Shown: positions 4,473-62,100 of the stretch, in pieces
Layout of the letters: the number at the start of each line of letters is the position of its first letter
How positions within the stretch are numbered: the first letter of the stretch is position 1
Assembly (NCBI RefSeq): GCF_030704535.1
Contig: NC_081809.1
Location: forward strand, 1,224,501-1,288,500
Reading direction: 5' to 3'
Source of the DNA: Vitis vinifera
Taxonomy: Eukaryota > Streptophyta > Magnoliopsida > Vitales > Vitaceae
Length of the DNA: 64,000 bases
Made by a program: the position numbers and the translations under genes
The notes under the pieces: generated by a model
Told to the model about the DNA's origin: nothing
The model's input: only the letters and a program-made list of their open reading frames with translations
Database searches by the model: none

Positions 4473-7400
4473 CTAGCGAAGCAAGTACCGAATGGCAGCA
4501 ACAGCATCACCTTTGTGTTCACGTAAGGTTCTCTCAGCCACCTTCTTGTCCAACTGTTCTCAATGTTACAGTAAAGAACGAGTAAATGTCTAGGAATGAT
4601 TACATGACAAAAAAGGCAGAGAGATGGGAGGAAACCAACCTCTAGTTCATTTGCAATTATGTCAACGTCGGCTGCATTGATCTTGACAGCAGCTAATTCT
4701 TTCTCCCTGCGACCACATAGATATCCATGTTTGTTGAAACACATTGATTTAAAATAGCAGCAGTTGAAGAAATGTTCAGACAGCCAAAGAGGAAAGAAAA
4801 TCAATGCCCTTGCATAAGCTTCATGCTTCAGTCACAACTAATTGCACCCAAAACTGAATTAGTATCAACATGAAAAATTACATAAACAAAACTAGTTGCA
4901 CCCAAAAAGCCTAGAATTCCATGACAACATTTTCATAAGTTGGGACCAAAAACATGAAAGCAATCCTTCTAGTAAAACATTATCAATAATTAATAATGAC
5001 CCTTAAATAAATCATAATAACAAAATCTATCACTTCCTGTATTTAGGCCTAACATAAGTGTGTAATTTAATATCTTTACCTCCATCATGAACACATGCAT
5101 CTTGTTATACCAAATATAAATACTAATATATGTCCTCTGATGTCATCAGGATATAGGTGTAAATAGCTGCACCAAGCCCTGACAAGCTCATCTCAGGCTT
5201 GTGATCTTGGTCATTGGTGCTTGGGCATGCTCCCGTGTGTTCAGCCTTAATTGCTATAATCTACCATATCATCTCCAGTGCAGTTTCTTTTTCTTTTTTC
5301 TTTTAAATCCACTATGCATTTAAAGTAGTCCAAATGGTTTTGATACTGATTAGGTCTTATTCATCTTTTTTTTTATTTATAGGTAATTAGATCTTATTCA
5401 TCCATTTAATTTATATATCAGAGCAAACCTAGCCCAAATAGCAGCGAAAATAACCTGACCTAAGTACAATTTAATGCTTGTAACAATGTCTTTTCAAGCA
5501 TGTAACTATGAATTATTGTAACATGTCATCTAGCAAAGCCTACCCACATGAAATCTCTCAAAAGGAGAATATGTGCTGCAAGCAAGAATGCTAGAAATGT
5601 GTTTTTTATTTTTTTATAGGCAAATAAAAGAGAATAATAAAAGCACTAAAAGAACTAGCGCACCAGAGTACATAGGATGTATATGATAAGCACCTAGAGG
5701 TAAAGGAAAAAAAAGGGAAAATAAAAATCTACCCCCTCCTTCAATAATATCCCAACCAATCTACAAAATTAATTAAAGGCATTAGAGTCTTCATCTATGT
5801 ACACCTTGAGACACAGGTAGAGGTTATTAAGGAAAGTGCTTTTGAGCCTTTGATCATACTTATCCTTATTTTCAAATGATCTTCGGTTTTGTTTCCCTCC
5901 AAACAATTCAAAAAATGCACAAGAGAATGACCATCTACACCTTCTTTCACCTTTTTCCTACAAAAGAATCATGCCACCCTAAAAGAGTCTCCATGACCAT
6001 AGTAGAAACACCAAATAATGAGAACAACAACTATCATAAAATCCTAGATTTGTCATGATGAAGAAGAATGTGGTCAATGGATTCTCCAAATGCATAAGTG
6101 AATGACTATCCATGCCTTCTTTCACCTTTTTCCTACAAAAGAATCATGCCACCCTAAAAGAGCCTCCATGACCATATTAGAAACAACCTAAGAAACACCA
6201 AAAATGAGAACAACTAACATAAAATCCTAGATATGTCATGATGAAGAAGAATATGGTCAATGGATTCTCCCTCCACTTTGCAAAGAGACATCTATTGACT
6301 AATGACCAACATCTTCCTTGATGTAGGTCCAAAGTCAAACACCATACCCATAAAGGCCTTCCAAGCAAAAAAGCTCATTTTAGACAAAATCCAGGGTTTC
6401 CAAATTATCCCTAATAGAAAGGGAATGACATAATCTAGATCCAGGACAAAATAAACAAATTATCCCTAATAGAAAGGGAATGACATAATCTAGATCCAGG
6501 ACAAAATAAAGGGCTTTCACTGAAAAGCTTCCATGGTTAGTGCCCCTCCATACTACTTAATCCTCCATTAAAATTCCTTGCGAAATAGAAATTCCAATGT
6601 CCACCACTTCGCATCCATAAATTTGTCACCCACACCTCTTTCAACTCGACGAAGGTAAATAAGGATGGAAAGGAAACATATGAAGACTCCTCACCACACC
6701 ACTTATCCTTCTAAAACTTCAACCTTCTCCCATTACCCACAGAAAATGAGACTCTACTATAAAAAAGATCTCATTCCTCTCTTATACCTTTCAATAAGCT
6801 GACTCATAAGTATCTCTTACCCCATAAGAACACCACCCCCTTTCTTCTTTCCCATACTTGTCACCTATAAGCCTCTTCCAAAGAATATCTCTTTCATATG
6901 TATAACACCAACTCCATTTGCAAAGAAGAGCTTTGTTGTTCAAAGAGAGATCTAACACCCAAACGCTCTTTAGACTTGGCCTTACAAACAATCAACCACT
7001 TTGCTAAGTGTGGCTTTTTCTCTAGGGATCCTCCTCCCCAAAGGAAATCCATTTGGATCTTCTCTAGCCTTAAGCAAGAATTCCAGAAATGTTGAAGCAT
7101 AGACCTTGAGAAACGAGGGTTAAGATTCACATTGTCTCATTTAAAAAAGAAAACTAAGTAAACATAAGAATTGTTTGCAATATGTATCATTCAGGAGATT
7201 AACTGTTTATGTTCAAGATCCCTAACATGGTATCACATCAAACATTCAACATTACAAACAGTTCCAGAGCAATTGTTACAACATTATTCAAATCCATTTA
7301 TAAGAATATTAGCTGCAGCTTAGTAAGATGCAAAAGCTCACCTCATTCTCATGGCATTCCAGTCTGCTTCTGCGGATGCTGCAATTGATGCCATGGCCTG

Positions 7401-8170
7401 TCACAATCATACCACAGTTGTGAGCAAGCATGAGAAATATATAATCTAAGCAAACATGCAATTCACTTTGATTTTTCTACTAGTTTTCACCATCCTCAGC
7501 CCAAGTTCAATGATCTGTAAGCTGGGCAACCCATTATAGGTAGAGATAACAAGTTATTCTGACCATCAGTTTGATTAATGAGAAAATTAAGGGAAAAAGG
7601 AAAATGATACAGGGCCCTTTTTGTTAACAGAAAAAAATATATTATATTTACAACCAATTTCATTTTCGAAAATGAACCAAGAGAATATTTTCATTTTCAA
7701 ATCGATTCCCATCGTTAAAAGAGTTTGCTTCCTTATACTCCAGTATTTTCTCCACAAATGACTAATTTTTAGTAAAAAAATTCATATTCGAAATCATGTT
7801 ATCAAACATATCTTCCGTGTCCTTTTTCAATTTCTTTTTCTATTTCCGAAGGCGGAAAAAAATTCTCATACCAAACAACCCTAAAAGTTTAAAATTTTGC
7901 TTTTAAAAAATAGAACCGCAATTCAAGTAAACGGTAAACCACGCACTTCTTAATATTCAGACCTTGCTTTTTCTTTTTCCATTCACACATTTTCCCAGCA
8001 ACCAAATGGAGAACTAAAGCAAAATTAACCAAAAAAAAAACCTCTTGAACACGAGTGGAATCCAGCTGGCGATCTTCCACATGATCAGTGAGCTTGTCTA
8101 GGGCTTTGCTTTGCTGTTGCAAGTCCTTCGAATCCACTACCCGATCGATTCCTTCATCTGCTACCTCCAT
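4473..8170 (-). CDS. HYPK: HYPK-like protein, NatA acetyltransferase regulator
   Basis: Four exons read on the minus strand: 8170-8042, 7397-7342, 4706-4640 and 4553-4473, giving 110 residues. The start MEVADEGIDRVVDSKDLQQQ is followed by the charged helix SKALDKLTDHVEDRQLDSTR, then AMASIAASAEADWNAM. The C-terminal UBA-like domain runs from NAADVDIIANELE through DKKVAERTLREHKGD to the end, RYLLR. This is the plant homologue of huntingtin-interacting protein K. In other eukaryotes HYPK binds the ribosome-associated NatA complex (Naa10/Naa15) and controls co-translational N-terminal acetylation; plant HYPK is reported to stabilise NatA. All splice sites are GT-AG and exon phases agree. Intron 2 (4707-7341, about 2.6 kb) is enlarged by a LINE fragment in the same orientation. 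Four TGGGCY motifs upstream fit a translation-related housekeeping promoter. Confidence 0.88.
5913..6270. repeat. Tandem duplication, unit about 175 bp
   Basis: Copy A (5913-6087) and copy B (6088-6270) share long blocks, including CCTACAAAAGAATCATGCCA and GGTCAATGGATTCTCC, with scattered differences. The unit lies inside the LINE 3' fragment, so part of the LINE tail has been duplicated in tandem. Confidence 0.8.
6401..6510. repeat. Perfect 55-bp tandem duplication
   Basis: The 55-bp unit beginning CAAATTATCCCTAATAGAAA occurs twice in a row (6401-6455 and 6456-6510) without a visible mismatch. This implies a recent replication-slippage or repair duplication inside the older LINE remnant. 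Confidence 0.85.
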
Positions 8171-9009: not shown

Positions 9010-9558
9010 ATGGGAAAAGTTTCTAAGTATGTGGGAGTGATGGGTGTAGTGATGGTATTGGTGGTCGTGGGAATGGCAGAAGCCAGAAAGCTGGAGAAGG
9101 ATTCGTTTTCTGGTGGAGGGCTTGGTGGTGGAGGAGGATTTGGCGGCGGAGGTGGTGCCGGAGGAGGGTTTGGAGGTGGAAAAGGTGGTGGAGGAGGGTT
9201 TGGAGGTGGGAAAGGTGGTGGAGGAGGGTTTGGAGGTGGGAAGGGTGGCGGAGGAGGGTTTGGTGGTGGTTCAGGAGGAGGATTTGGCGGTGGGGGCGGG
9301 TCTGGTGGAGGTGCTGGCGGTGGGTTCGGAGGCGGCAAGGGTGGTGGTGGAGGATTTGGAGGTGGGGCAGGTGGCGGAGCTGGAGGAGGATTTGGAGGTG
9401 GAGCTGGTGCTGGCGGGGGTTTTGGAGGTGGATCAGGTGGGGGTGCTGGAGGAGGATTCGGGGGTGGAGGCGGCTCCGGAGGAGGGATTGGCGGTGGTCA
9501 CGGAGGTGGTGCTGGTGGGGGTGGAGGCTTTGGTGGTGGTTCTGGCGGTGGATTTTAA
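9010..9558 (+). CDS. Secreted glycine-rich cell-wall protein
   Basis: Single exon of 182 residues. The start ATG at 9010 opens a signal peptide, MGKVSKYVGVMGVVMVLVVV followed by GMAEA, with likely cleavage near residue 25. After a short linker (RKLEKDSFSG) the rest is almost only glycine, in irregular GGGFGGG, GGGAGGG, GGKGGGG and GGGSGGG repeats ending GGSGGGF then TAA. This is the layout of class I plant glycine-rich proteins, which are exported to the cell wall and can stiffen vascular or dermal tissue. No RNA-binding, cysteine-rich or oleosin domain follows. The repeats are encoded mainly by GGT/GGA/GGC codons, making a purine-rich + strand; the long proline-rich frames on the opposite strand are shadows. 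The exact tissue role cannot be read from the sequence. Confidence 0.9.
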   Translation: MGKVSKYVGVMGVVMVLVVVGMAEARKLEKDSFSGGGLGGGGGFGGGGGAGGGFGGGKGGGGGFGGGKGGGGGFGGGKGGGGGFGGGSGGGFGGGGGSGGGAGGGFGGGKGGGGGFGGGAGGGAGGGFGGGAGAGGGFGGGSGGGAGGGFGGGGGSGGGIGGGHGGGAGGGGGFGGGSGGGF

Positions 9559-9690
9559 ATCTATGTTTAAGTAAAGCTTGTGACATAAGACGTAGTACAC
9601 CATGCTTGAGCCGTTGTGGTTTGTGCATGGACAATATTATTGGAATAAAGTCCACTAGGACTCGAACGTACCCTCTCGCTTATCCCATGC

Positions 9691-9706
9691 AATAAAATAA
9701 AATAAA
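9691..9706 (+). terminator. Poly(A) signal of the glycine-rich protein gene
   Basis: Overlapping AATAAA hexamers (AATAAAATAAAATAAA) lie about 130 bases after the stop codon, a suitable place for the near-upstream polyadenylation element. Confidence 0.5.
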
Positions 9707-10439
9707 ATCATTATCTTGCTTTATATTTGTTATGCCATGATTTTGTTTCAATAATATTTGCAATTCCTACACCCTAATTGATTGATAGATGTCTTTCGTT
9801 ACGCCTTCAACCTTATTTGGACTTGGTCGGTTCCCAAAAAATACAATTATTTAAATCATACTATGTATATATACTTAAATCCTCGTTTCTTTATATCTTA
9901 ATTTCATTCTTTTATGTCTTGAATTTTAATCTTTTGTACTTTGATCCTATCATGATCTAAATTTTAATATGTATTTTCAACAACCAAAATTGAAAGTTCG
10001 ATAGTTACCTTTTCCATGCCTTAATTAAATTTTTCCTATTTCAACATGTGTTAATTAAATCAAAATGTGACTAAAACGAAAAACCGAGGTATGAGAAGTG
10101 ACCGAAGGTACTAACAATATGATTAGGGTACATACAAAACTGAAACCATTTTTTTTTAATTTAAATTATCAACAACTTGGACCATATCTTAAATTCCAAT
10201 GAATGGTATCAAATATTAGGTACGATATCCTTTGGTACGGTAGAATGTTATAATCAAAGTAATCATAAAGTGAAAGATTAATTTTTGTTTAATAAAGGAA
10301 TGAATTGAAAAGAACACAGAAGATCGAGTATCTAAAGCTTCATGTGAGCGTATGAGCAAAGAAGAAGAGGTGTAAGTTGGTATAAAATTAACAATCATTT
10401 CCGATAATACATTCCTGGCTAATTAATCGATCATCTGCT
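9707..10439. other. Convergent intergenic DNA between the glycine-rich protein and pectinesterase genes
   Basis: AT-rich sequence without a recognisable gene or repeat. Its right part should contain the 3' UTR of the minus-strand pectinesterase gene. Confidence 0.5.
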
Positions 10440-11885
10440 TCATAGCCATGCCGGTAGCCATTTCTGGCCATCCACGAAGTCCACGGAGAGGTAAGGAGCA
10501 GCTTCTTCATCAGTGAGCTGTAAAGACCATGAAGCCCGGTTCTCTGTTTCTGCTCCTGGTCCATAGCATTTGTACTCCGCTTGGAATAGGTTCCTGTTCC
10601 AATTTACAGTCAATATATAATCTGATAAGTTGTTCATAAAAAGAAGATTGAAGATGGGTTTTGGGTTTAAGGTTTAATTTTTTCTTACTCGGTGCTGCCA
10701 GTATAGCTCCATTTGGTCCAGCCCTGCGGGACTATTGTCCTAGACATATAAACCTTCGCAAAAACCGCTCTAGAATGGGAGCCTTTGGCTCTACCCAAGT
10801 ATACTCCTCCAATGCCATACACTTTCCCTTTCACAAACACAAACCCACTGTTATCTTCTCCACTTTGCCTGTTCTGAGCTGTGATGGATCCTGAGATCTT
10901 CACCCTTTGGTCTGCAATCACGAATATCTCACAGTTCTGCGTTCACCCAGAGAGTGAGAGGATTAAGAACAAAAACACAGTTTCAAGAATCATGACGGGG
11001 TTTTTTTGGATTGCGTTAAAGCTTAAAACTCACATGGAAGATGGATCTTCCGCGGCCAAAGATGAAATCAACTGAGCCCTGGATGTAGCAGTTGTGGTAG
11101 AAGTGCCTGCCTTTGTAATCAAAGAGAGTGTTGTGGGTACTGTAGAAGGAGCAGTGGTAGAATGCTACCATCTCCGCCCCCACATATGCTGCCACTGACT
11201 GGTTCTGTGAGGTCTGGGCGACCCCGGTCGGAGCATCATTCTGTAAAACCGTATACATAGAATTAATATCGAATCGAATCTAATCAACCATCTTTATCAA
11301 TGGAGTCATGGAGATCAGTGGAGAAGAAGCAACGGACCTTGAAGCTGATACCAAAGATAACAACATGGGGGGCTTTAACTTTGAAAGTTGCAGACTCTAT
11401 GTTGTCCTTGGAGCTTTGGGACCAAACGATGGAAGTCCTGCCTCTCCCATTTCCTCTCAGGAAGATATAAGGCTTGTTCTCTGGTATGTGAACCTTCTCT
11501 CTGTGAATCACAATTAAAAAGCATTCCACATTAGGGAAATTTAAAATAAGGGTTTTTTTTTTTCTTTTAATTATAGAATTGGTTTGAAGGAAAGGGAAGA
11601 AACAAATTACTTGTACACCCCTTTTCTGATATGGATGATAGTCCACTTGCCATTCCCTTCAGGAACAGAGTCAATGGCAGCTTGAACAGAAGTGAAGTCT
11701 CCTCTGCCATTGATATCGACCTTGATCGTGTGGTTGGCACCAATCTTTTTCGTCAAGAGAGGAGAATCTAACACTGTTGTATTGAGATTGGGGGATTTGT
11801 TATGTGCTGCATGGGATGCAGGGATGGAGACGGAGACAATGACCAGAAAGGCAATGTGAATGGCTTGAAGGAATGGTGAAGACAT
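10440..11885 (-). CDS. Pectin methylesterase family protein (active site altered)
   Basis: Five exons on the minus strand: 11885-11611, 11500-11338, 11240-11034, 10936-10689 and 10593-10440, giving 348 residues. A signal peptide (ending near SHAAH) precedes a single pectinesterase domain with no inhibitor-like pro-region, so it is a group 2 type enzyme. Conserved blocks: IKVDINGRGDFTSVQAAIDS, GVYKEKV, the oxyanion Gln in NQSVAAYV, QGSVDFIFG with the nucleophile Asp, and YLGRAKGSHSR with the catalytic-loop Arg. Family members de-esterify wall homogalacturonan. Oddly, the usual QDTL block reads STHNTL, so the general-acid Asp is Asn and the preceding Gln is His, and the Trp of LGRPW is Lys. Frame, splice sites and the rest of the fold are intact. 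It may therefore be weakly active or non-catalytic. Confidence 0.9.
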
Positions 11886-14800
11886 GGTTTCCAGGAGGAG
11901 CAGAAGCTGAATTGTTTGGATATGGAAAGGGAGCTTGTAGGAGATGAAGTTTTGATGGAGTTTTTGGGAGATCTCAAAGTGAAAAACATTGTGTTCATTT
12001 TAGGGGAGAGGTTGTTTGGAAGGTAAAATTGGAGGTTATTGAATTGAATGGCGTCTCTGTTTTGGAGGGCCTCCAACGGTTTCTTTTGTGGTTGATGTGC
12101 TCTGTTTTTGTTTTGATCTCTCTGCATGACATCTCTCTCATTCGTCCACAACTAGATGTGGTTGAATTTTATAACTCTGGAATTCCATCAAACACTTCAA
12201 TTATTTTTAAGACTTTCTAAATAAGGGTATCATGCTATATCCAAAAATGGAACATGCCCCATCATTATTAGTTGAAAATGGGGATATGGCGCTACCTTTT
12301 TGCCATAGATGAGAATTCATAGTTGGGATGACTTACCTTAAACATGGGTTATATATATGATAGAAGACGAGGGGCTTATTTGGGCACATTATGGAAAATA
12401 GTTTTTAAAAATAGTTATCAATTATTTGGGCACATTTTAAACATGGGTTATCTAATTTTTTCTTTGTTAATTTTCAATGGGCCCAAGTCTCGGTGTTGCG
12501 ACTCTAAATAATGATTAAATTGACCAAGTTAAGTAATTTACATCCAAATTCCATAAGTTATTACTAAATCACAAGATATTGACTCATGTGTCAAACTTTA
12601 GACTATCATTGTGGAAACAAATATAACTTGATGATATTTTTAAACCATGAATGCCATGGGCTTAGAAGGTTGCTTCTATGAAAACTATGTTTGGGAAAAA
12701 AGAAAAGATTTCTTTTTCAAATAAAATCTTTCTCCATAATAAACATGTTTAGGGTTTAGAATTCGAGTAGGTTGAGATGGAACACCCTTATCCCAAATTC
12801 AAGGTAAAGTAGGCTAATGGGTTGCCATCCTCATTTACAAATAAATATTGTCCTTGTCTCATCAATGCAAATCTAAACCCTAGATCATCCATGAATTTGA
12901 ACCCTTCTCAAGGTCAATCCTCAAACCAAAATCTTAACAAATCCATTGTTTCATCTTCTTCGATTTCAAGGCTTTGACATTCTTATCAAGTTATGCCTAT
13001 GAAAAAAAGGCTTTTATTTTTTTTTATAATTTTAAAAAGGTTAGAGCACCCTTAGGGGAATTGTAGTGGCATCACAAGCAATGTTCTAGATAATTAGGTA
13101 CTTTGCACATATTTAGGACCAATGACAAATATGATTGGGCGATGGATGGAAATGATGAGGCCTAACGATTAGTTCAACGTTACTTACAAATAGTTTTCAG
13201 GATTAAGACTAAAGTAAGAGTAACGTGAAATTCATTTCAAAGATGAGTTTTAACTGCTGTATGGGAGGAAGAAGAAATGGGGCAATCAAAGTGGGGAAAG
13301 ATTCGAATCCAAACATAAGGGTTCTAAGGCTAATGTTTGGAAAAATAATTCTTTATGGGAAGAAGTTTTTATTATTTTTTTAATATTTGAAGGACAATTT
13401 TCAAAATTCACATTTGGAGTAAGTTAGTAGAAAACGTACATACCCCAAATCCAATTCAGGTTTTGAAGATGTTTCCAAATCCATTCCATTCCCAATTATA
13501 ATATTTCCATACTTATCCCAATGGGTCGAGCCTGGTCGGGCCAAGCAACCCAAATAACCTGCAAAACTTCCATCCCTAAACATGTTTAGGAGGGATGAGA
13601 ATTCCACCATCTCAGACCAGTTGGAGATTGAAATAAATGAAGAATGGAGTAACGGGGACCAGGGGTATTTATCATTGAATTGGATGATGTTAATATTGAG
13701 AAATGTTGCCCATAACATATGATGAAGCATGAAAGAGACTCTTAATAATAAGGTCCAAACTATGGAGTATGAAAGCCCATAATCAATGCTCCATCTGAGG
13801 AATTTATATGGAAAGAATTTAATATTCTCGTCTCTCATTCTATTAGTCGTTAACTATGGAGCATTAAGTTTCAGAATTATTAGTCTGTCTTTGCAATTTC
13901 TATGGAAAGGGGGTAATATTCTCTTTTCTCATTCTATTGCTCTTTAATGTAGTTAATAATATTCCAAAATTTAATGCTGAATTATCACAGTACGAATTAT
14001 TGCCTGTGGAGATGGATAAATGGATTTAGGTAATGTTTGACTTTTTGTCTTAAATCCTAAATCTTAATTTAAGTCAGAATAAAGTAAAATGTTTAGAGGG
14101 CGTTTGTTTTTTTTACTTTTTATTTAAAATAATTTATTTTTTGAATTTAGGTGGTTTGTTTTTCTACTTTTTCATCATTTATTATAAACCTTTTAAAAAA
14201 ATCAAAATATTTAACTTTTAAAAAAAATCAAAATATTTAACTTTTTCGAAAAAAAAATAAAAAAATATTGGTTTTTCTTTACTTTTTAATACTTAATAGA
14301 AATAAAATACTACAAAAACAAACAACCTAATATTTAATACTATTAAATATTAAGTTTCTACTTAAAATTAAACAAAAAAACAAACACCACATATTTATTA
14401 TGATATTACATGTTAAATTATTTGTTTTTACCTATAAAAGTATTTGAGACAAATTTGTCCTAAAAAATATTTATTTTATATAATTAAGATAGAATATTTT
14501 AAAAATAAAAATAAAAATAATGGAATATGTTTCCAAGTATCTCAAAATCTTAAAATAATGGAATATTTTCATTATTGACAAATCAATTGATAATCAATTT
14601 TTTAGTGAAAGAAGTTTTTTTTCTTTACTCTTTTCCTTTTCTTAGACTTTATATTTACATATACTCTCATATGAATCTAGATAATTAGCAAGATGGGAAT
14701 TCGTAAGAACAAAATAAATAAGGCAAACACAAATAAATGGGGTAGTAGAAAATTTGACTTTCGTTGTTCTTTTGTATTCAACATTTTTAACAAACAAATA

Positions 14801-17622: not shown

Positions 17623-17740
17623 ATAAATAGGGAGCTTTGACCCAAAATAATGCTTTTTAAAAAAAAATTCCAAAAAATAAAGTGGTTTTGAAAATAATGC
17701 CCGATCTAATGCGTTTGTGCCACATAAGCCGCCACGTCAT

Positions 17741-17938
17741 AAAACCGTAGTTGGTGACTACGGTTTTATTTTTCTAAAGTGTTTAGAAACCGTAGTTACC
17801 AACCACGGTTTTAACTTTTAAGTTTAAAGCCGTAGTTGGTGACTACGGCTTTGACTTTTTTTTTAAATGGTCAAAGCCGCAGTTGGTGACTACGGCTTTG
17901 ACTGGTCAAAGCCGTAGTCACCAACTGCGGTTTTAACT
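17741..17938. repeat. Cluster of five short hairpin repeats in the left MULE arm
   Basis: Variants of CCGTAGTTGGTGACTACGG occur five times in about 200 bp. The first (17741-17767) is a perfect hairpin with the 11-bp stem AAAACCGTAGT, the loop TGGTG and the stem ACTACGGTTTT. Other copies start with GCCGTAGT or GCCGCAGT. The mirrored cluster lies in the right arm at about 19291-19488. They are likely subterminal transposase-binding or structural repeats. Confidence 0.8.
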
Positions 17939-18521
17939 TTATATATATTTATATATAACTTTAATTTTTTTAATAAAAATATTATATTATTTTGATTTTA
18001 AATATACTTATTTCATTATTTTAAAAATTATAATATACGAAATTAAATAATTGATATTTTTAATTTGATATAAAAATATATTTTTGAATTTTATTAAAAT
18101 AATAGGCACTATATTTAATATAAATATAATTAATTAATTAAAATAAAATATAATAAATTATATTTATTTAAAATAAATAAATTATAAATGCCTATTTAGA
18201 AAAATAAAAAAGTAATATAAATTATTATATTAATTAATAATTTTTTATATATTATATATAAGTGGTATATAATACCTCTCACACACACATATAAAAGTCT
18301 AATTTAAGTTTAAAATTTATCACATTTTTATTTAAATATATAAATAAATATTATTAAAACATTTGACACTATATTTAATATAAATATAATTATTTAATTA
18401 AAATTAAATATAAATAAAATATAATAAATTATGTTTATTTAAAATAAATAAATTATAAATGCCTATTTGGAGAAAAAAATAATATAAATTATTATATTAA
18501 TTAATAATTTTTTTATATATT

Positions 18522-18707
18522 ATATGTAAATAGTATATAATATGGCCGGAAGATGGGCAACTAAGTCTCCCATGTAAGGCTCCCATAAAACCTGTTAAAA
18601 TCAACATTTGAGATTAATACTGAGTATAGGTTTAAATGGTTAACAATAACACATTACATCTTATATGTACCTGGTCATGGGTCTGTGCATCTAACTGGTC
18701 TCGATAA
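18522..18707. other. Unpaired centre of the MULE element
   Basis: A 186-bp single-copy spacer between the inverted arms, with more mixed base composition (GGCCGGAAGATGGGCAACTA) than the AT-rich arms. It contains no open frame of note and no gene fragment that I recognise. Confidence 0.6.
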
Positions 18708-19729
18708 AATATATAAAAAAATTATTAATTAATATAATAATTTATATTATTTTTTTCTCCAAATAGGCATTTATAATTTATTTATTTTAAATAAACATAA
18801 TTTATTATATTTTATTTATATTTAATTTTAATTAAATAATTATATTTATATTAAATATAGTGTCAAATGTTTTAATAATATTTATTTATATATTTAAATA
18901 AAAATGTGATAAATTTTAAACTTAAATTAGACTTTTATATGTGTGTGTGAGAGGTATTATATACCACTTATATATAATATATAAAAAATTATTAATTAAT
19001 ATAATAATTTATATTACTTTTTTATTTTTCTAAATAGGCATTTATAATTTATTTATTTTAAATAAATATAATTTATTATATTTTATTTTAATTAATTAAT
19101 TATATTTATATTAAATATAGTGCCTATTATTTTAATAAAATTCAAAAATATATTTTTATATCAAATTAAAAATATCAATTATTTAATTTCGTATATTATA
19201 ATTTTAAAATAATGAAATAAGTATATTTAAAATCAAAATAATATAATATTTTTATTAAAAAAATTAAAGTTATATATAAATATATATAAAGTTAAAACCG
19301 CAGTTGGTGACTACGGCTTTGACCAGTCAAAGCCGTAGTCACCAACTGCGGCTTTGACCATTTAAAAAAAAAAGTCAAAGCCGTAGTCACCAACTACGGC
19401 TTTAAACTTAAAAGTTAAAACCGTGGTTGGTAACTACGGTTTCTAAACACTTTAGAAAAATAAAACCGTAGTCACCAACTACGGTTTTATAACGTGGCGG
19501 CTTATGTGGCACAAACGCATTAGATCGGGCATTATTTTCAAAACCACTTTATTTTTTGGAATTTTTTTTTAAAAAGCATTATTTTGGGTCAAAGCTCATA
19601 AATAGGATTAAAATATAAACAATAGAACTTAAAAATATATATTATCTAATTAATAATATTTTTCTATAGGTATTGAAAAAAATCTATTTCAATATTGTTG
19701 TCTAATCATCCATAAACCCATTGAAATAA

Positions 19730-21037
19730 GGGAAATTTGTGTTTTGATGAGACTATTAGGGAAATATATGGTTTTCGAAACCCAACTTTATGAAATCTAA
19801 AAATCAATTTTTAATATGAAAAATTATATATTTTTTATGCACTTTGAGTCAGTTGTATATTTTGTGTTGAGATTGCTTTTTTCTTTTCTTCTCCTATACC
19901 CACCATCTGTCTCTCCCTCCCTCCCCAGTGAAACCGATCGGCACTTTGCCGGCGTCATCACCGGTCTCCCCCTCTCTCCCTTTCCCTTCCCTCTTTCTCT
20001 TTCTTTCCTTCCCTTTCGACATCACCAAGAGAGAAGGCGGTGGCAATGATGGAGAACCAGGACTGAAGGGAAGAAGGCGCAACTGGTTGCCATTGACGGC
20101 GGCAACCAGCAATTCTCGCGGTCATTGACGACAATGGCGATGGAAGCACCAACATAGGGAGAGACATCGAGGAGGGGTGGGTTGGTATTCCTGATTATGG
20201 AGGATCCATGGTGGGTTCTATTGTTTATCCTCAAAAGGGCTCTTTAGGGTGTGTGCCTTTTGAGGGTGACAAGCCCTTCAAGTCTCGCTCCTCTCCCACC
20301 ACTGTTCTTCTTCTTGACCGTAAAGGTATTCCAGATTCATCCCTCTTCTTTAATTCTTGTTTGTTTGTTGGGAATTTGATTTAGTACTATAAGAGAATCC
20401 ATTTCTCAATGATGGGTGGGTCTTGCCTTTTCCTTCTCCTTCTTCGTTTGCCCTTATATTAGCTGAATTTGTATGGAGTTATTGCATTAATGGGTATTTT
20501 GTTTGGCTTCTGGATTTGGGTTTTTGATGCTTTGAATTTGAATTTTGCGATAACGGTGGTGCTCCCCTCTGGGTAGAGCTCCCCTTTCTCCTACACTGGT
20601 GTTTTCGTCGTCACCACCGTCGTCAATGACCACAAGAGTTGCTAGTTGTCATCATTAATGGCAACTAGTCGCGCCTTCTTCCCTCCGGCCCTGGTTCTCC
20701 ACCATTGCCACCGTCGTTTTCTCTCTTGATGATGTCAAAAATGAAGGAAAGAGAGAGAAAAAGAGGAAAGGGAAAGGGAAAGGGAGAGAGGGGGAGGCCA
20801 ATGATGATGCCAACAAAGTGTTGGCCGATTTCACTAGGGAGAGAGGAAGACGTGGATGGTGGGTACGGGAGGAAAAAAAAAAAAAAAAAGGGCAATCTCG
20901 GCACAAAATATGCAATCGGCTCAGAGTGCATAAAAAATATATAATTTTTCACATTAAAAATTGATTTTCAGATTTCATAAAATTGGGTTCCAAAACCATA
21001 TATTTTTTAAATGGTCCCATCAAAATATAAGTTTCTT
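19730..21037. mobile_element. Older foldback element carrying a captured gene fragment (Pack-MULE-like)
   Basis: Imperfect inverted arms, about 19730-20165 and 20575-21037, pair end to end. Shared blocks include AAAAATTATATATTTTTTAT, CCCCCTCTCTCCCTTTCCCT and GGGAAGAAGGCGC, with many substitutions and small gaps between arms. Possible 9-bp flanking repeats are TTGAAATAA (19721-19729) and TTAAAATAA (21038-21046), which differ at one base. This would fit a Mutator-like element, but the ends GGGAAATTTGTG and AAGAAACTTATA match imperfectly, so the superfamily call is tentative. The loop holds an exon piece of a vacuolar sorting receptor. Proline- and serine-rich open frames in both arms are translations of the same inverted repeat, not genes. 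The arm divergence makes it clearly older than its neighbour. Confidence 0.6.
20175..20325 (+). pseudogene. Captured fragment of a vacuolar sorting receptor gene (PA domain)
   Basis: One uninterrupted frame reads GWVGIPDYGGSMVGSIVYPQ, then KGSLGCVPFEGDKPFKSRSS, then PTTVLLLDRK. This matches the start of the protease-associated domain of plant vacuolar sorting receptors (pattern GxPxYGGxMxGxVxYP ... PTxxLLDRG). After DRK comes a plausible donor (AAAG|GTATTC), and the following 250 bases look like intron. Genomic DNA, not a spliced message, was therefore captured. It has no start codon and is cut off on both sides by the foldback arms, so it cannot make a receptor. The identification is from memory of the family. 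Confidence 0.65.
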
Positions 21038-23404: not shown

Positions 23405-23553
23405 TCTAATAGTCTTTGTAGGCAAATTCATTCAAAGCATTCTTCTATGCATCATTGTGTTCTTCAGTTCCTCCTTCCACTTTTTGGTTCTTCCTTTCAC
23501 CTTTTTTGGCTGCAGATCCTGTGTTTATAGTATCGCTCAGTAGATTTTGGGCT

Positions 23554-40697: not shown

Positions 40698-41448
40698 TTG
40701 CCAGTATCGATCATCCACCGTTTTGTCGGAAGAGAAGATGTTATCCAGATCGAAGATTTTAGTTACGTTTAATATCATGAAGATGTCAAAACAAATCTCT
40801 AATGAAGTTACTTAAAACTTAAGCTTTCATTAAAAGGAATACGTTTCTATAAATGAATTAAAATTATTATTTTATAAAATAGTCCTAGTCTTTTGGATAA
40901 GTTAGTTAAATCAGTTTGAGGTAGGTAAGAAATGTCGGTTCGGGCGGTGGTTTTTGTCTTGGAGACCGTTACTTTTTTTTAAATAAAATAATAAATATAA
41001 TGTTTTGGAGTGACATCATTTGGTCCCAAAAGGTGGGGTAACGGGACATGGCGGATTTTATCTGGTGTTGTTCAGTTTCCATTGGGACATGTATCTGAGA
41101 CTCTTGTTCTCTTTCCAGGTGTTGGATAAGGTTTTGTATGTATGGTTTCCTTTAGGATATGTGGATATATGGGATTCCTTTAATAATTAGGATAAGCTTT
41201 CTTTCTTATGTACACGTTAGAGGTTTATACATGGGAACTAACAATGTCCCATGCTTTCTCTTACCTTAATATCGAAGGACCCAAGAAGTGTGGCTTTCAA
41301 CTAGAGATAGATATGAGACCTTGCAAATTTCGAGGGAATAAAAACATAGAAGAAAATTTGTAAAATTTAGGAATGCTTTTTTCTTTTTTATATTATATTT
41401 GGTTTTAGAAGATATTAAGAAAATAAAAAAAAATATTAATAAATATGA

Positions 41449-42960
41449 TTTTTGGTAAAAAAAGAAAAAGTTAAAATATTTAACTTTTTGTATTTAAATG
41501 AAAGTTTCATATTAATTAATATAATTAAGAGTACGTTAGTAGTGATTTTAAAAAATATTTATAACATTTATAACACTTAGAAATTTTCATTCTTCAAATA
41601 TTAAAAATGTTAGAAATATTTTATATAATCATTGTTAACGTACTCAAAACTGAACATATTGATAATAATTTCACTTTACTTATATTAGTTAATATCAATA
41701 AATTATTTTTACCTGAATAAATTTTTTTTGAATATTTTGATTTTTTTTATTTTATTTAAAAAACAAACATCATCAAAACGAGAGTTAGAAATATCACCCT
41801 AAAGTTTGTATGGAATTAATAAACAAAACTACTTTAGGTATGGAATTAATAAACAAAACTAATAACATAATGATATTGGAAATATCCTGAATCTTCGCGT
41901 GTCTCCTCATCATGCCGATCTCTTTTCGGTCCTATCCATTATGAATATAAAATTATAGTCATAAACAAATTATTATATATTAAAAAAATAAATTGTAGTT
42001 GGATTTGAATTTTGTGGTGGAAGCCTCCTATCAAGAAGTTTCCAGCTACATTGCATTGAATGTGCTATGATTTTAATATTATAGAAATATATATGAAATA
42101 TCATTTATTTAATGGGAGAAATGATTTGAATAAACATTTGGGAAATAAATAATTCACAAGTTGAAAAATAAATAAGTTTGAAAGTGTTAACAGTAAAATA
42201 AAATATCAAGAAGCACACCTTTCAATTTCGTGTAGCATCGTTTCAATTAAAGAAAAAAAAAATTAAGATGATGTTTGCCTTTGGGTATTAAAAAAAAAAA
42301 AAAAAATATTTAATTTTTTATATTTAAATAAAAGTTCCATATTAATATTAATCAATATAATTAAAAGTGCGTTTGATAGTAATTTTAAAAAGTATTTATA
42401 ACATTTATAACACTTAAAAATTTTCATTCTTAAAATATTAAAATGCTATAAACTTTTTTTATAATCACTGTTAAACGCACTCAAAATTGAATATATTGAT
42501 ATTGATTTCATTTTAGTTATATTAGTTGATATCAACAAATTACTTTTAACTGAATAAAAAAAGTTAAATATTTTAATTTTTTATATTTAACCAAAAAACA
42601 AACACCATCTAAATGAGAATTAGAAATATAACCCTAAGTTTGTATGGAATTAATAAACAAGACCAATAACATAATGACATTGGAAATATCCTGAATCTTC
42701 ACGTGTCTCCCCATCATGCCGACCTCTTTCCGGTCCTATCTATTATGAATATAAAATTATAGTAATAAACAAATTATAATATATTAAAAAAATAAATTGT
42801 AGTTGGATTTGAATTTTGTGGTGGAAGCCTCCTATCAAGAAGTTTCCAGCTACATTGCATTGAATGTGCTATGATTTTAATATTATAGAAATATATTAAT
42901 GAAATATCATTTATTTAATGGGAGAAATAATTTGAATAAACATTTGGGAAATAAATAATT
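41449..42960. repeat. Direct duplication of about 700 bp
   Basis: Copy 1 (about 41449-42154) and copy 2 (about 42271-42960) are collinear. Shared segments include GGTGGAAGCCTCCTATCAAG, AAGTTTCCAGCTACATTGCA and CATGCCGA(T/C)CTCTTT(T/C)CGG. They differ by substitutions and small indels. A second short duplication (GTATGGAATTAATAAACAAA twice, near 41810-41860) is present only in copy 1. Both copies carry the same small inverted-repeat element, so the duplication came after that insertion. Confidence 0.85.
42266..42610. mobile_element. MITE-like element in duplication copy 2
   Basis: The ends AGATGATGTTTGCCTTTGGG and CCAAAAAACAAACACCATCT form imperfect inverted repeats around about 345 bp of AT-rich DNA. 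A second inverted pair inside (AAGTGCGTTTGATAGTAATT and its partner TAATCACTGTTAAACGCACT) suggests another small element nested in it. There is no coding capacity. In copy 1 only the right outer end is clear. Confidence 0.55.
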
Positions 42961-45444
42961 TCCCAAGTAGGGAAGGGTATGCTCATTTTTAATTGTAAAT
43001 TGTATAAGCAGGGGAGTGCCCGGGCTTGTGTGGTATCTGGGCCGGACCCATTAATGGATAAGGTTTCCAATTTGGGAGGCCCACATTTCTATTCTTTGTT
43101 CTATCAATGCCGTGTTTTCCTCAATTTTCCAGAAACCAAACTAGGCCTCTAGAAGAAACCCATTTGGCATGAGTTCGAACCTTGTTGCATGTTTATTTGT
43201 ACCAATTTATCGTGTCCATTCCTCTGCTCTTCTACGTCGCTTTTGTACAAGTTAATGTGGGCCGAAGCCCAGATTACTTGTTATAGAGGGCCGGTGGCTT
43301 CCCCGTCCAAGTTAAGGAAACCCAGGTCCATGCTAAAGAAGCGAACTCATGACCCCAAACCATACTCAGGGCTACAGCTTCAACACAGTCGACTAACCAA
43401 AGTTGCAAACAAGGCCCAATCCAGACAACAAACCGGGGCCCAATCTTCCAACTGCCCCGACCGTCCATCCAGGTGAGCCCCACAACAGGTATGGCCTGGC
43501 CTCATCCCCCTAGGCCCACACTTGACCAGATACTTCCCATGCAAAGCGAGTGGGCCCAATGTCCATAATCAAGACAGGCCATGGGGCCCATTTCGGCACT
43601 GAGCTGGACTCCTCAGCCCATTTCCTGGAACCCCGTTATAAACAAAATAAATATTTGCCACCAAGAAGTAGATCAAATTGGACCCATTCTCCACGCCACA
43701 GTGTAAGTCCATAGCGAAGAATGCTGGAACCTGCTTGGAAAAATACAGTAAAATGGAGGCATTATTGCTTGAAAATTGGTTGCAATGTCCCCATCCACGA
43801 GACAGATTTACAACCAGAGAATACACATTCAAACGACAAGTTTTCTCACTTATCATCGACCCTACTTTCAACATGGCTGCAACCAAATTTTATGTTGCTA
43901 TAAGTGCAACGAATCTTCATAGAGTCAAAATATGTCTACATCCTGATTTGCACATGCATAGCACATCAATTTCCGTCAAAGGCCCCTGTATTTAATGTGT
44001 TGGTTTCCAAAACATGATTTTTTTTTTCTATGGTCTCTTGCAGTTTTCGTAGCAAACCCGATTCTGACTTTGAATTAAAGAGATTTTCACAATTTTAAAA
44101 TGTCTACATAATTCAGAAAAATCATAAATATATCACACCAAATTTTTTTTTCTATTTTTCGATGTGGGATCGAGCTCTGCCCACTATCTCTTCCATGGAT
44201 AAATTAGAGATTAAATATGTGGAGAAGAAGGCCTTTGCGCCATTAACATTCTCCACATCTTCAATAATTTGAGTTGTTGGGTGAGCGACCAGAGATTCTC
44301 CCTCTTAAACACTGAGAGTGACATTTAATTATTGTATTTCTGATTGGGCCTCAAAGTGTGGCCCACTGCTATGCTGCTGCCTCCTCCTTGGGGAGTATCT
44401 CCCTTCACTGTCATCCTCTACCTACTACCGCTATTCAATTTGTTTGTTCCAAGTAAAAATATTCCAAGATGAATTTATGATCTAATAATTAGTCACTTTC
44501 TGGAAGTAATAAAGATTATAAATAAGAACAAAAATGGTATAAAAAAAATTATTTGGTGTCACATCTATAAAAAAGAACTATATTTTAAAACATTTCTTTT
44601 AATAATTATTTAAAAAATAAAAATATTATTTAGGGTGTCAAAAATAAATTAATTAAAATATTATCATTAGTCTAACGAAGGAGGGACTCTATAAGCAAAG
44701 TTATTAGTAAAAATCTTGACCTTGAAATTGGGCCTTTATGGAGAAAGTTTCGGCCCAGAGGAAATGGGCCAACTTGTCAGCCTGGCTTGTTTCAAGGCAA
44801 TGGGATAAAAGGTGAGTGGTCTGGGCCTTGCACCTTCAACAGCCCATCATTAAAAAGGAAAAAAAGAGAGAGGAATGCTAAAGGGTACTGCTAGGCTGCA
44901 TCAAACACAGGGTTGATATCCTTGTTTGGGCTGGATACAGGCCCAATAAAGCCCAGTTTAGGTAAAATCTCTGGCCTAACATTTGTGCTCAGAATCCCTA
45001 GTCATAACCAGCCCAGCCCACTATGTCTTCTTCCTCCTTTTAACCACTACGAAATGACTGCCAGGCTGAACGCCTAGAGACTTCTACCCTCAACAGCGGT
45101 ACAACAGCAACTTCCACTTCACAAAGTTAAAAAACCTCACAAATGACAAAACAAAACAAAACAAAAACAAGCAAAGCGTTGTTCAAAAACAGAAGCAAAA
45201 AATATTTTCAAAACAGAAGATTTAAAATATTAAAATAAAAATAAAAATTTTTATATTTGAGAAATGGAGACATTGAAAATAACACCCAACAAAAGGCTTC
45301 CCCACGCCATCTTCTCCCACAAGAGAATGAACGCGTCGCTGTTCCTCTACAACCGAACACCCCCCATCCCCTCTTAACCTACGCACCCCTCCTGCTCTTA
45401 TCCTACGCGTCAAGCTAGGGTTTTTTCTCAACCCCCACCAAAAC

Positions 45445-59100: not shown

Positions 59101-62100
59101 TACTTTTGTTGGACAACTTGCTGCTTTGGTTTCAACCACAGTTGAGCATGTTATTGCCCCAGATGTTAGGTATTATTTTACATATGCATTTGTCCTTTCT
59201 TTGTAGCTTTCCTGTTTTCTGCAAGAACATTATTTCATGGATTAAACCCAGTCCATATTTTAATCTTAGGCATGCATTTGAAAAATGAGAGCTCCACATT
59301 TTTTTGATTGGAAACGATACAAATATATATTAATATAGAAAAGGAGTACAAGAAGAAGGATGAGAAATCCTCCAACCAAAAACAACTAAATTACATGAAA
59401 AAACACAAAAAACAAACGAACACCCACTAAGGACCAATCCCTATGGAGTACACACCGCTATCCAATCCAGTTGAATCACATTAAGGGGAATCCCCTTAAA
59501 TGCCTTGGAACAGAAGGCCCAAAGGGAAGCAAGGAAAACTATAGAGTCCCAAAGGTACTCTGAATTCCTTGCTTTATCCTCAAAAATCCTTGCGTTTCTT
59601 TCCCACCACACAACCCGAATTAGAGCTATGCTCGCAGCTTGCCACAAAACTATCCCTCTCTTAGAATTACCGAAGCCTTTAAATTTGATGGACATCATGT
59701 CATATATGCTCCTTGGGGAAACCCAATCCAACTTAGCTAACTGAAATAGCCTGTGCCACAACCCAATCGTCAAGGAACAATGAAGAAATAGATGATCTGC
59801 TGATTCCCCGTGCTTCATGCACAGGATACAAATATCAGGACTAAGGGCTTTGTAGGGTCTTCTCACTTGTAACATATCATTAGTATTCACCTTCTTGTGT
59901 GCCACTAACCAGACAAAGGACTTCACTTTGAAAGGAACTTGAGAATTCCACACGAACTTTGAAGGAAAGTTCTGAGAAGATCCAGAAGATTGAGATAATG
60001 CTAGAAAAAAGGATTTGACTGAAAAAAGCCCTGACGAGGATAAAGGCCATAATCTGGCATCTGGGACCGAAGGAGAGAGATACAAATCATCAAGAGACCG
60101 CATGAGGCCTTCTAAGTCCTCAATCTCAGAATCTGACAGGTTACGGCGGAAATTCAAATTCCACAAGAAAGGCCGAGATGGACCGAGAACTGAAGAGATA
60201 GAAATGTTTTTGTCCACGACTACTCTGAATAGTCTTGGATATTGGGTTCCCAAAGGTTGGTCCCCCCGCCACAAATCTTCCCAGAACCGAATTCTATCCC
60301 CACATACCGAGTAATCAAAGAAAACTCCTGAAAGACTTGAGCAATAGCCTTCCAAGGACAGCGATGAGACCATCTGACTACAGTGTTAGCATCCCAACCA
60401 TTAGAGTGTGAACCATAAATGCTTAAAATGACCTGATGCCAAAGAGCTGAACCCTCTCTAGGATACCTCCATAACCATTTCCCTAGTAGAGCAAGGTTCC
60501 TCCAAGAAATATTCCCCAAACCCAAACCCCCTATTGTCTTTGGTCTGCACACAATATCCCACCTCACTAAATGATCCCTTTTGCCTTCCCCAACCCCTGA
60601 CCATAAAAAATCCCTTTGCAACCTCTCTATTTTTGCCGCCACTGTAGCGGGCATTTTAAATAAGGATAGGAAGTAACTTGGCAAATGGGTAAGACAAGAC
60701 TGGATAAGAGTTATTCTCCCCCCGAAGGATAAGTAGGCCTTTTGCCACCCATCTAATCTACTTGAGATTCTCTCAACCACTGGATCCCAAAATCCACACG
60801 ACTTAGGATTCCCGCCCAAAGGGAGGCCCAGATATAGAATAGGCCAACCAGACGCCTTACAATCAAGCATCTCAGCCAATCTTGAAAGATGAGCCTGATC
60901 AAGATTGATGCCATAAATGCTGCTCTTGTTAAGATTGACCTTGAGCCCAGAAATGTGCCCAAACACTAACAAAAGACTCTTCAGAGTCTGCAGCTCTTCC
61001 TCCCTTGAGTTAGAAAAGAATATGGTGTCATCAGCAAATTGCAAATGGGACACCCTAGTTCTATTTCTACCCACCCTGAAACCCTCCAACATATTTCTTT
61101 CCTCAGCTCTCATGAGCATCCTGCTCAGTACATCTGCAACTAAAGTAAACAAAAAAGGGGATAAAGGGTCGCCTTGTCTTAAACCCCTAGATGCCTTAAC
61201 CCACCCTTTAGCACTACCATTCACCAAGATTGCAAAAGATACTGAAGATAAACACCCACTCATCCATTTCCTCCATCTAGGGCTGAACCCTTTCTTTTCT
61301 AACACATGATCCAAAAAATCCCACTTCACGTGATCGTATGCCTTTTCAAAGTCTATTTTGAATACGACACCTTCCTCCCCTGACCTTCTTCTCTCATCCA
61401 CTATCTCATTCGCTATAAGAACCGCATCCAATATTTGTCTCCCTTGAACAAAAGCGCCTTGAGTATAGTGGATGGTCTCATGTAGAACCCCTCTTAGTCG
61501 CCCAGAAAGCACTTTGGCTATTATCTTGTAGAGACTAGTGATCAAACTAATGGGTCTAAAGTCTGATATTCTCTTTGATAGACTCTTTTTGGGTATTAGA
61601 ACAATGAAAGAGGCATTAGTGCTTTGATTGATAATTCCGCTCCTATGAAATTCAGCGAACACTCTCACCAAATCCTCCTTAATCACATCCCAACACTCTT
61701 GGAATACGGCAATAGTAAAGCCATCTGGCCCCGGAGCCTTGTCCCTATCCAACTGAAAAATGGCCTTAGAAATCTCTTCTTCGGTGAAAGGGGATTCTAA
61801 CCTTAACGCACTCTCTTCCGAAATAGGGGACCAATCTAAACCTTCAACACCCCAAGACTCTCCTGTAGGATTTGTGTAAAGCTTCTCAAAGTAATGTAAA
61901 ATCTCCTCTGTGATACTCTCGGCATTCTTCAGCACTAAAATGAGAGCTCCACATATCTCCTAAAAAAGCCAATTTTGGAAAGAAAAAAAAAAAAACTAGA
62001 ACTGGCCCTTCCCCATGACAGGCGTTCTTTCTAGGTTCAAGTCCTTGGCTTACACAGCACACAGTTCTTAGGGGAGTGGTCATATCTGTTGTTTTATCCA

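Follow-up and report, generated by a model that had tools for sequence, protein, structure and literature searches.

How does a transposable element come to carry the same long sequence, inverted, at both of its ends, and what moves it thereafter? The locus that raises this question is a 1,966-bp element at positions 17632 to 19597 of the window, by which we mean the whole 64,000-nucleotide stretch of Vitis vinifera DNA that was analysed. It is flanked on either side by ATAAATAGG, a 9-bp target-site duplication that can be read directly at 17623 to 17631 on the left and at 19598 to 19606 on the right. By alignment, an 890-bp left arm (17632 to 18521, plus strand) and an 890-bp right arm (18708 to 19597, minus strand) enclose a centre of 186 bp (18522 to 18707), and 1,780 of the 1,966 bp thus lie in inverted arms, as in a foldback element. 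The gapped alignment of the two arms, 891 columns in length, contained 1 substitution and 2 single-base indels, and their inverted pairing was recovered independently in stretches of 506 nt at 100%, 236 nt at 99%, and 171 nt at 100%. An earlier note on this DNA had described near-identical 890-bp arms, a 186-bp centre, and a 9-bp duplication, and both the coordinates and the sequence proved exact when re-aligned. Its description of the element as non-autonomous also stood, as no open reading frame (ORF) of at least 130 amino acids is present within the element; the closest ORFs of this length stop at 13838 on one side and start at 23455 on the other. The element was found to be undescribed in the titles and abstract openings of the open-access literature searched.

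The surroundings of the element contain further repeats and coding sequences. Beside it lies a second, more diverged inverted repeat (19732 to 20151 and 20597 to 21035, 79% over 440 aligned bases), which is not flanked by an exact 8- to 11-bp duplication. A direct repeat of ~740 bp with 84% identity occupies 41421 to 42161 and 42249 to 42968, and a head-to-tail repeat of ~180 bp, 86% identical, occupies 5913 to 6087 and 6088 to 6270. The element's setting also includes a raffinose-synthase ORF, and on the minus strand at 59441 to 61935 there is an ORF with an RVT_1 match (4.9e-39), LINE-like by eye, followed by an ORF of 310 amino acids.

To place the element in its family, we searched the arm against the 496-Mb genome (21 contigs), which gave 469 candidates, and scored the best 40 of the 469. 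This sample of 40 places, the window and 39 others fetched with their flanks, was selected for resemblance to the window arm, and the proportions of copy types in it therefore do not describe the genome. Two inverted arms were present in 36 of the 40 places, or in 35 of 39 without the window. Both ends could be called in 31 of the two-armed copies, and in the other 5 (L032, L036, L042, L043, and L045) one end or both had degenerated. The 4 remaining places (L023, L027, L028, and L038) have a single arm and are parts of long elements that share 3.5 to 5.2 kb at 95 to 97%. An extra, unpaired arm match (83.7%) was seen at L014:5267-5588, at a distance of ~1.7 kb from where the L014 copy ends; it is truncated by the edge of the fetched stretch.

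Members of the Mutator superfamily (MULEs) are recognised by target-site duplications of ~9 bp (9 to 11 bp). Among the 31 copies with both ends called, 23 had a duplication of exactly 9 bp, and these 23 duplications were 71% A+T and of mixed sequence. Imperfect 9-bp duplications were found in 2 copies (L026, with one mismatch, and L033, with two), and 2 more, L029 and L034, had no target duplication. As a control, we paired the left and right flanks of different copies and obtained no match in 930 pairings. The earlier note had named other duplication lengths elsewhere in the family as grounds against its proposal, and the 9-bp length mostly held, the exceptions being 3 of the 31 copies with exactly 10 bp (L015, L016, and L037) and 1 of the 31 with 7 bp (L021). 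That the second arm might be an assembly or sequencing duplication, a concern because near-perfect inverted repeats are in general hard to assemble, is next to impossible as a general cause and is refuted for the family, given that 35 of the 39 other fetched places share the two-arm shape, that the called ends of the copies sit in different target duplications, and that L012 and L017 have the same two joins as the window copy.

The genome-wide search with the arm had been proposed at the outset as a way to find family members and a copy with a transposase, and it yielded both. When L048 was joined to L023, the two formed a single 10,865-bp element of contig C7, carrying transposase ORFs and, on the same strand, a plant mobile domain (PMD) gene (L048:5273-7900 with L023:598-2191). 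Both termini of this long element carry a 22-bp end identical to that of the window element, and its flanking 9-mers agree at 8 of 9 positions; the corresponding figures are 9 of 9 for the L027 element and 8 of 9 for the L028 element. Its transposase is split into two ORFs in a single frame with one stop between them, which may be a defect or lie within an intron, the first with a MuDR DNA-binding domain (PF03108, 2.9e-10) and the second with MULE (PF10551, 9e-19), SWIM (1e-5), and Transposase_mut (PF00872) domains in Pfam. Downstream of it lie the two ORFs of the PMD gene (PF10536, 1.7e-52 and 1.1e-18). The PMD ORFs are open in 3 of the 4 long copies, and the only long copy read from end to end, that on C7, has a stop within its transposase reading. 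Taken together, the 9-bp duplications found throughout the family and the long relative, whose ends are identical and whose ORFs encode MULE transposase domains, bear out the identification of the window element as a MULE.

Purifying selection on the PMD gene was unsupported, with pairwise dN/dS values of 0.34 to 3.8 and few changes, and a comparison of PMD with solved structures gave 7 weak matches, all to a kinase (TAK1) fusion with E values of 0.014 to 0.018, which we took as chance. The idea that a PMD gene on a MULE might itself be a novelty was dropped. PMD has been reported on MULEs of grasses and Amborella in the available part of one paper (PMC5418596), and the excerpted text of another gives it for most members of several MULE groups, including MUDRAVI2, which has grapevine members (PMC6446971); according to a passage of a third paper, eudicots hold mainly genic PMD-C (PMC7156037).

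Aligned to the long element, positions 1 to 912 of the window element correspond to 10865 to 9918, which is the PMD-side end read inward (94.1%, gaps counted), positions 909 to 1079 to a stretch of the PMD gene lying 2.4 kb deeper in the C7 element (97.7%), and positions 1073 to 1966 to 9936 to 10865, which is the PMD-side end inverted (94.4%). The left arm thus aligns as one copy of the PMD-side end and the right arm as a second, inverted copy. Short internal-repeat matches aside, what the transposase-side end has in common with either arm is limited to the outermost ~234 bp, the TIR part, which lies at 17632 to 17865 in the left arm (plus strand, 91.9%) and at 19365 to 19597 in the right (minus strand, 91.5%). 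When substitutions only were counted, the window arm differed from the PMD ends of the long copies by 1.3% (L023), 1.3% (L027), 2.2% (L038), and 2.7% (L028); for the left arm and L023, this amounted to 12 substitutions in 889 aligned bases.

The centre begins with 22 bp that continue the arm as in the long elements (18522 to 18543, plus strand) and otherwise consists of a 168-bp relic of the PMD gene (18540 to 18707, minus strand), which comprises the end of the inter-ORF gap and the first bases of the second PMD ORF (97.7% to long element 7341 to 7511). These two pieces meet at join 1 (18540 to 18543) in the sequence ATAT, a 4-bp microhomology common to both parents. At join 2 (18704 to 18710) the PMD relic passes into the inverted arm with a BLAST overlap of 7 bp containing one mismatch and a strict overlap of 3 bp (AAT). 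As judged from these alignments, both window arms derive from one end, the PMD side, of the long element, and the centre is a scrap of the PMD gene. Since arms and centre alike map to the PMD end and the PMD gene, the foldback appears to have arisen by deletion together with inverted duplication of one end. We consider it highly probable (about 0.88) that the window element is a non-autonomous palindromic foldback MULE whose founder came from the long PMD-carrying MULE family, and that this family moves it in trans.

Long TIRs are, on the other hand, typical of MULEs, and the grapevine family Mutavine-7 has TIRs of 710 bp according to part of the report describing it (PMC2528002), so that the window element might be taken for an ordinary MULE with ancestral 890-bp TIRs from which the transposase gene was deleted. 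However, the inverted repeat of the C7 element is only ~234 bp long (90.6%), and its two ends differ beyond it. Furthermore, the L027 and L028 elements have a transposase-side end that matches that of C7 and resembles the PMD end over only 235 to 246 aligned bases, and PMD-side sequence is found throughout both window arms. Ancestral 890-bp TIRs are thus ruled out for the three long copies with far ends covered (the C7 element, L027, and L028), and we regard such an ancestry for the window element as very improbable.

The preferred origin, from a single PMD-side end, could be followed in the sister copies, which fall by arm sequence into a subfamily A of 16 copies, the window included, and a subfamily B of 18, with L019 and L026 standing apart; three of the B copies (L036, L042, and L045) were assigned by matches alone. 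Part of the PMD piece is kept in 12 of the 16 subfamily-A copies, although L011 has only 19 bp of it. Join 1 survives in five (the window copy, L012, L017, L022, and L024), and L012 and L017 keep the whole centre and both joins. None of the piece is left in L009, L013, and L020. L016, which has A-type arms, extends beyond join 1 to either side and is missing the PMD piece, and with this different join it implies that not every A copy fits a single founder plan. Of 76 candidates for the 168-bp piece, 40 were scored, and these comprised 3 known palindromic copies, the 4 long copies read here, and 33 unread places.

Subfamily B differs from A at the join. Beyond A's join 1, 15 of the 18 B copies follow the long elements further inward, at 84 to 96% over 168 to 220 bp, and the remaining three (L030, L036, and L041) show 71 to 78% there; in 15 of the 16 A copies the match beyond join 1 is only 72 to 77%, which is that of the arm's internal repeat. 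Each of the 13 tested B elements combines two arm types, and each type groups across elements, whereas the A arms, left and right, group with one another and with the long PMD ends; L040, a B copy, was exceptional in having both arms in one clade. In the arm tree, many forks of which are weak and the bootstrap of which is not settled, the PMD-end arm of L023 fell inside a 33-row subfamily-A clade. The tree and the join differences together point to at least two doubling events, in that A and B would each go back to an inverted duplication of its own, both affecting the same end; the exception would be a common ancestor in which gene conversion overwrote one arm. L019 and L026 have another join in common (long element 9136 to 10227), and this join and that of L016 may represent additional events or deletions that happened later within a larger palindrome. 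We dropped a count of three palindrome events because different joins may be such later deletions, and kept the A/B split alone because the arm tree also shows it. A fold point estimated from the long matches was dropped as well, as the arm interior repeats itself and the matches therefore overlap.

The element had been proposed to be young on the strength of its near-identical arms. Since the two arms go back to a single end, their divergence is no clean clock, and we used the distance between sister copies instead. The left arm of the window copy and that of L009, which lie on different contigs and in different target duplications, differed by 0 substitutions and 2 gap columns in 885 aligned columns. 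The 95% upper bound on this divergence is ~0.34%, which at a plant substitution rate of 5e-9 per site per year corresponds to less than ~0.35 million years. The comparison upholds the proposed youth and supports recent mobility of the window element family.

Arm identity could also reflect continuing gene conversion between the two arms of a copy rather than youth. Consistent with this, the arms of 15 A copies were more alike within elements than in random pairs (only 1 of 5,000 re-pairings gave a value as low), and a private variant is common to both arms of L011. The effect in A is nevertheless small (a mean of 1.46% within elements, compared to 1.69% between), and the two arms of L016, L017, L018, and L021 carry different indels. 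Moreover, when 13 B elements were re-paired in the same way (L040 and L032 were left out), their own arms were more different than random pairs, with 4,999 of 5,000 re-pairings as low or lower, which implies that conversion is not general. Continuing conversion in place of youth is therefore an improbable source of the arm identity. The four copies with different indels have a 10-bp insertion in one arm and a loss of ~36 bp in the other. The arrangement of these indels relative to the centre is swapped between L017 and L021, which hints at arm exchange or flipping.

The arms contain palindromic motifs that may account for their mobility. Five 19-bp units, CCGTAGTTGGTGACTACGG and variants of it, lie at 17745 to 17930 in the left arm (starting at 17745, 17790, 17830, 17877, and 17912), and mirror units lie at 19298 to 19484 in the right arm (repeat families D1 and D2). 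Allowing up to 2 mismatches, we counted 5 occurrences each for the arm and the PMD end, 3 for the transposase end, and none for the C7 interior. These motifs are likely to be transposase sites, candidates for transposase binding; binding to palindromic subterminal motifs is on record in another superfamily, for piggyBat, in the portion of that study available (PMC11707139).

The best-supported course of events would begin with a long element whose PMD-side end was doubled in inverted orientation and joined through 3- to 4-bp microhomologies, and which lost most of its interior and the whole of the opposite, transposase-side end. Because of these microhomologies, we infer that the doubling took place during repair, plausibly the interrupted repair of an excision gap, which is probably how the palindrome originated; other microhomology-mediated rearrangement, or later deletions in a larger palindrome, would look alike by sequence alone. 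The product would have kept two full ends and all the subterminal palindromic motifs, such that a transposase could still pair and cut them, and it would then have been amplified and mobilised in trans by the transposase of the long family; we infer that a transposase of the C7 type in particular was responsible. The window copy would be a recent insertion in which the entire centre has been retained. A more speculative extension, which we consider unlikely at present, is that one-end palindromes are recurrent and favoured: the PMD end, with 5 motifs versus 3, would be the stronger transposase partner, and copies with this end doubled would out-transpose the mixed-end element. If true, this would explain why the same end underwent at least two inverted duplications and why the products spread, and the foldback would be a hyper-mobile parasite of the long element. 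Whether doubling of the stronger end drives foldback amplification can now be tested.

The same palindrome might act against its parent. In this scenario, a form of which the earlier note had raised by analogy with Mu killer in maize, read-through RNA would fold into an 890-bp hairpin and be processed into small interfering RNAs (siRNAs) able to silence the long elements. Complementarity extends over the full length of the arms, 661 of 867 arm 24-mers (and 696 of 870 21-mers) are found exactly in the C7 long element, and both TIRs come from one end, as they do in Mu killer in the part of the account consulted (PMC3440606). However, the doubled end is the downstream, PMD side and not the transposase side. 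By place in C7, 613 of the 24-mers matched the PMD-side kilobase and 63 the transposase-side kilobase, some of them in both, and 0 matched the interior with both genes; for 21-mers, 77 matched the transposase-side kilobase and 5 the interior. The first ATG of the C7 transposase ORF lies 3,144 bp from the transposase-side end, and the copies have spread to many sites, suggesting that any silencing was at least not immediate. Mu killer, by contrast, comes from the end next to the transposase gene, includes mudrA sequence, and has been proposed, in the same partial source, to act through the coding sequence (PMC3440606). If the arms are transcribed, siRNAs from them could mark the long elements at their ends and could hardly attack the transposase message through its coding sequence. 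A Mu-killer-like role for the locus is thus unlikely, and we continue to view the element chiefly as a palindrome mobilised by its long relatives. It is now testable whether hairpins from an accessory-gene end can silence a Mutator family, as the duplication of a transposase end does in maize.

The long relative itself resembles described grapevine MULEs. In the excerpted survey (PMC6446971), the MUDRAVI2 group of grapevine and other dicots has TIRs of 80 to 290 bp, a 9-bp duplication where indicated, a SWIM or CCHC finger, and PMD in most members, and PMD is often antisense. We found PMD, SWIM, a TIR in the range of 80 to 290 bp, and a 9-bp duplication (with one mismatch in 2 of 3 copies) in the long relative, features of MUDRAVI2 and of Mutavine-2, whereas its PMD gene is on the same strand as the transposase. 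Mutavine-2, as set out in part of its report (PMC2528002), is 11 kb long with a 180-bp TIR, and the likeness to the long relative is one of description.

Foldback MULEs are already known. FARE1 of Arabidopsis and MuTAnT of Medicago are MULEs that likewise lack autonomy and fold back on themselves through long inverted arms, and MuTAnT has an autonomous MULE relative, as the window element has a transposase-bearing long one; compared by description in the accessible text, MuTAnT differs in having 144-bp arms in 292 bp and TA-microsatellite targets, against 890-bp arms and mixed targets here (PMC4486113). Tomato MULEs with multiple or tandem TIRs also carry extra end copies, for which a template-slippage model is given in the part of the paper at hand; their additional TIRs are external and internal, whereas here a whole end replaces the opposite end, inverted (PMC3310237). 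Mu killer is also a one-end duplication, in which an autonomous element lost internal sequence and one of its ends, present a second time in inverted form, supplies both TIRs; in the sections available, it consists of the mudrA end with ~1.3 kb of mudrA and silences MuDR, whereas the window element is built from the accessory-gene (PMD) end (PMC3440606). Transposase gene sequence from the transposase-side end, which marks the inverted copies in Mu killer, is absent from the window element, whose family is dispersed over many sites. What sets the element apart is an origin that is unusually clear, with the parent visible: the foldback with its long arms, the family of long elements it came from, the joins, the gene scrap, and the sister copies are all legible in a single genome.
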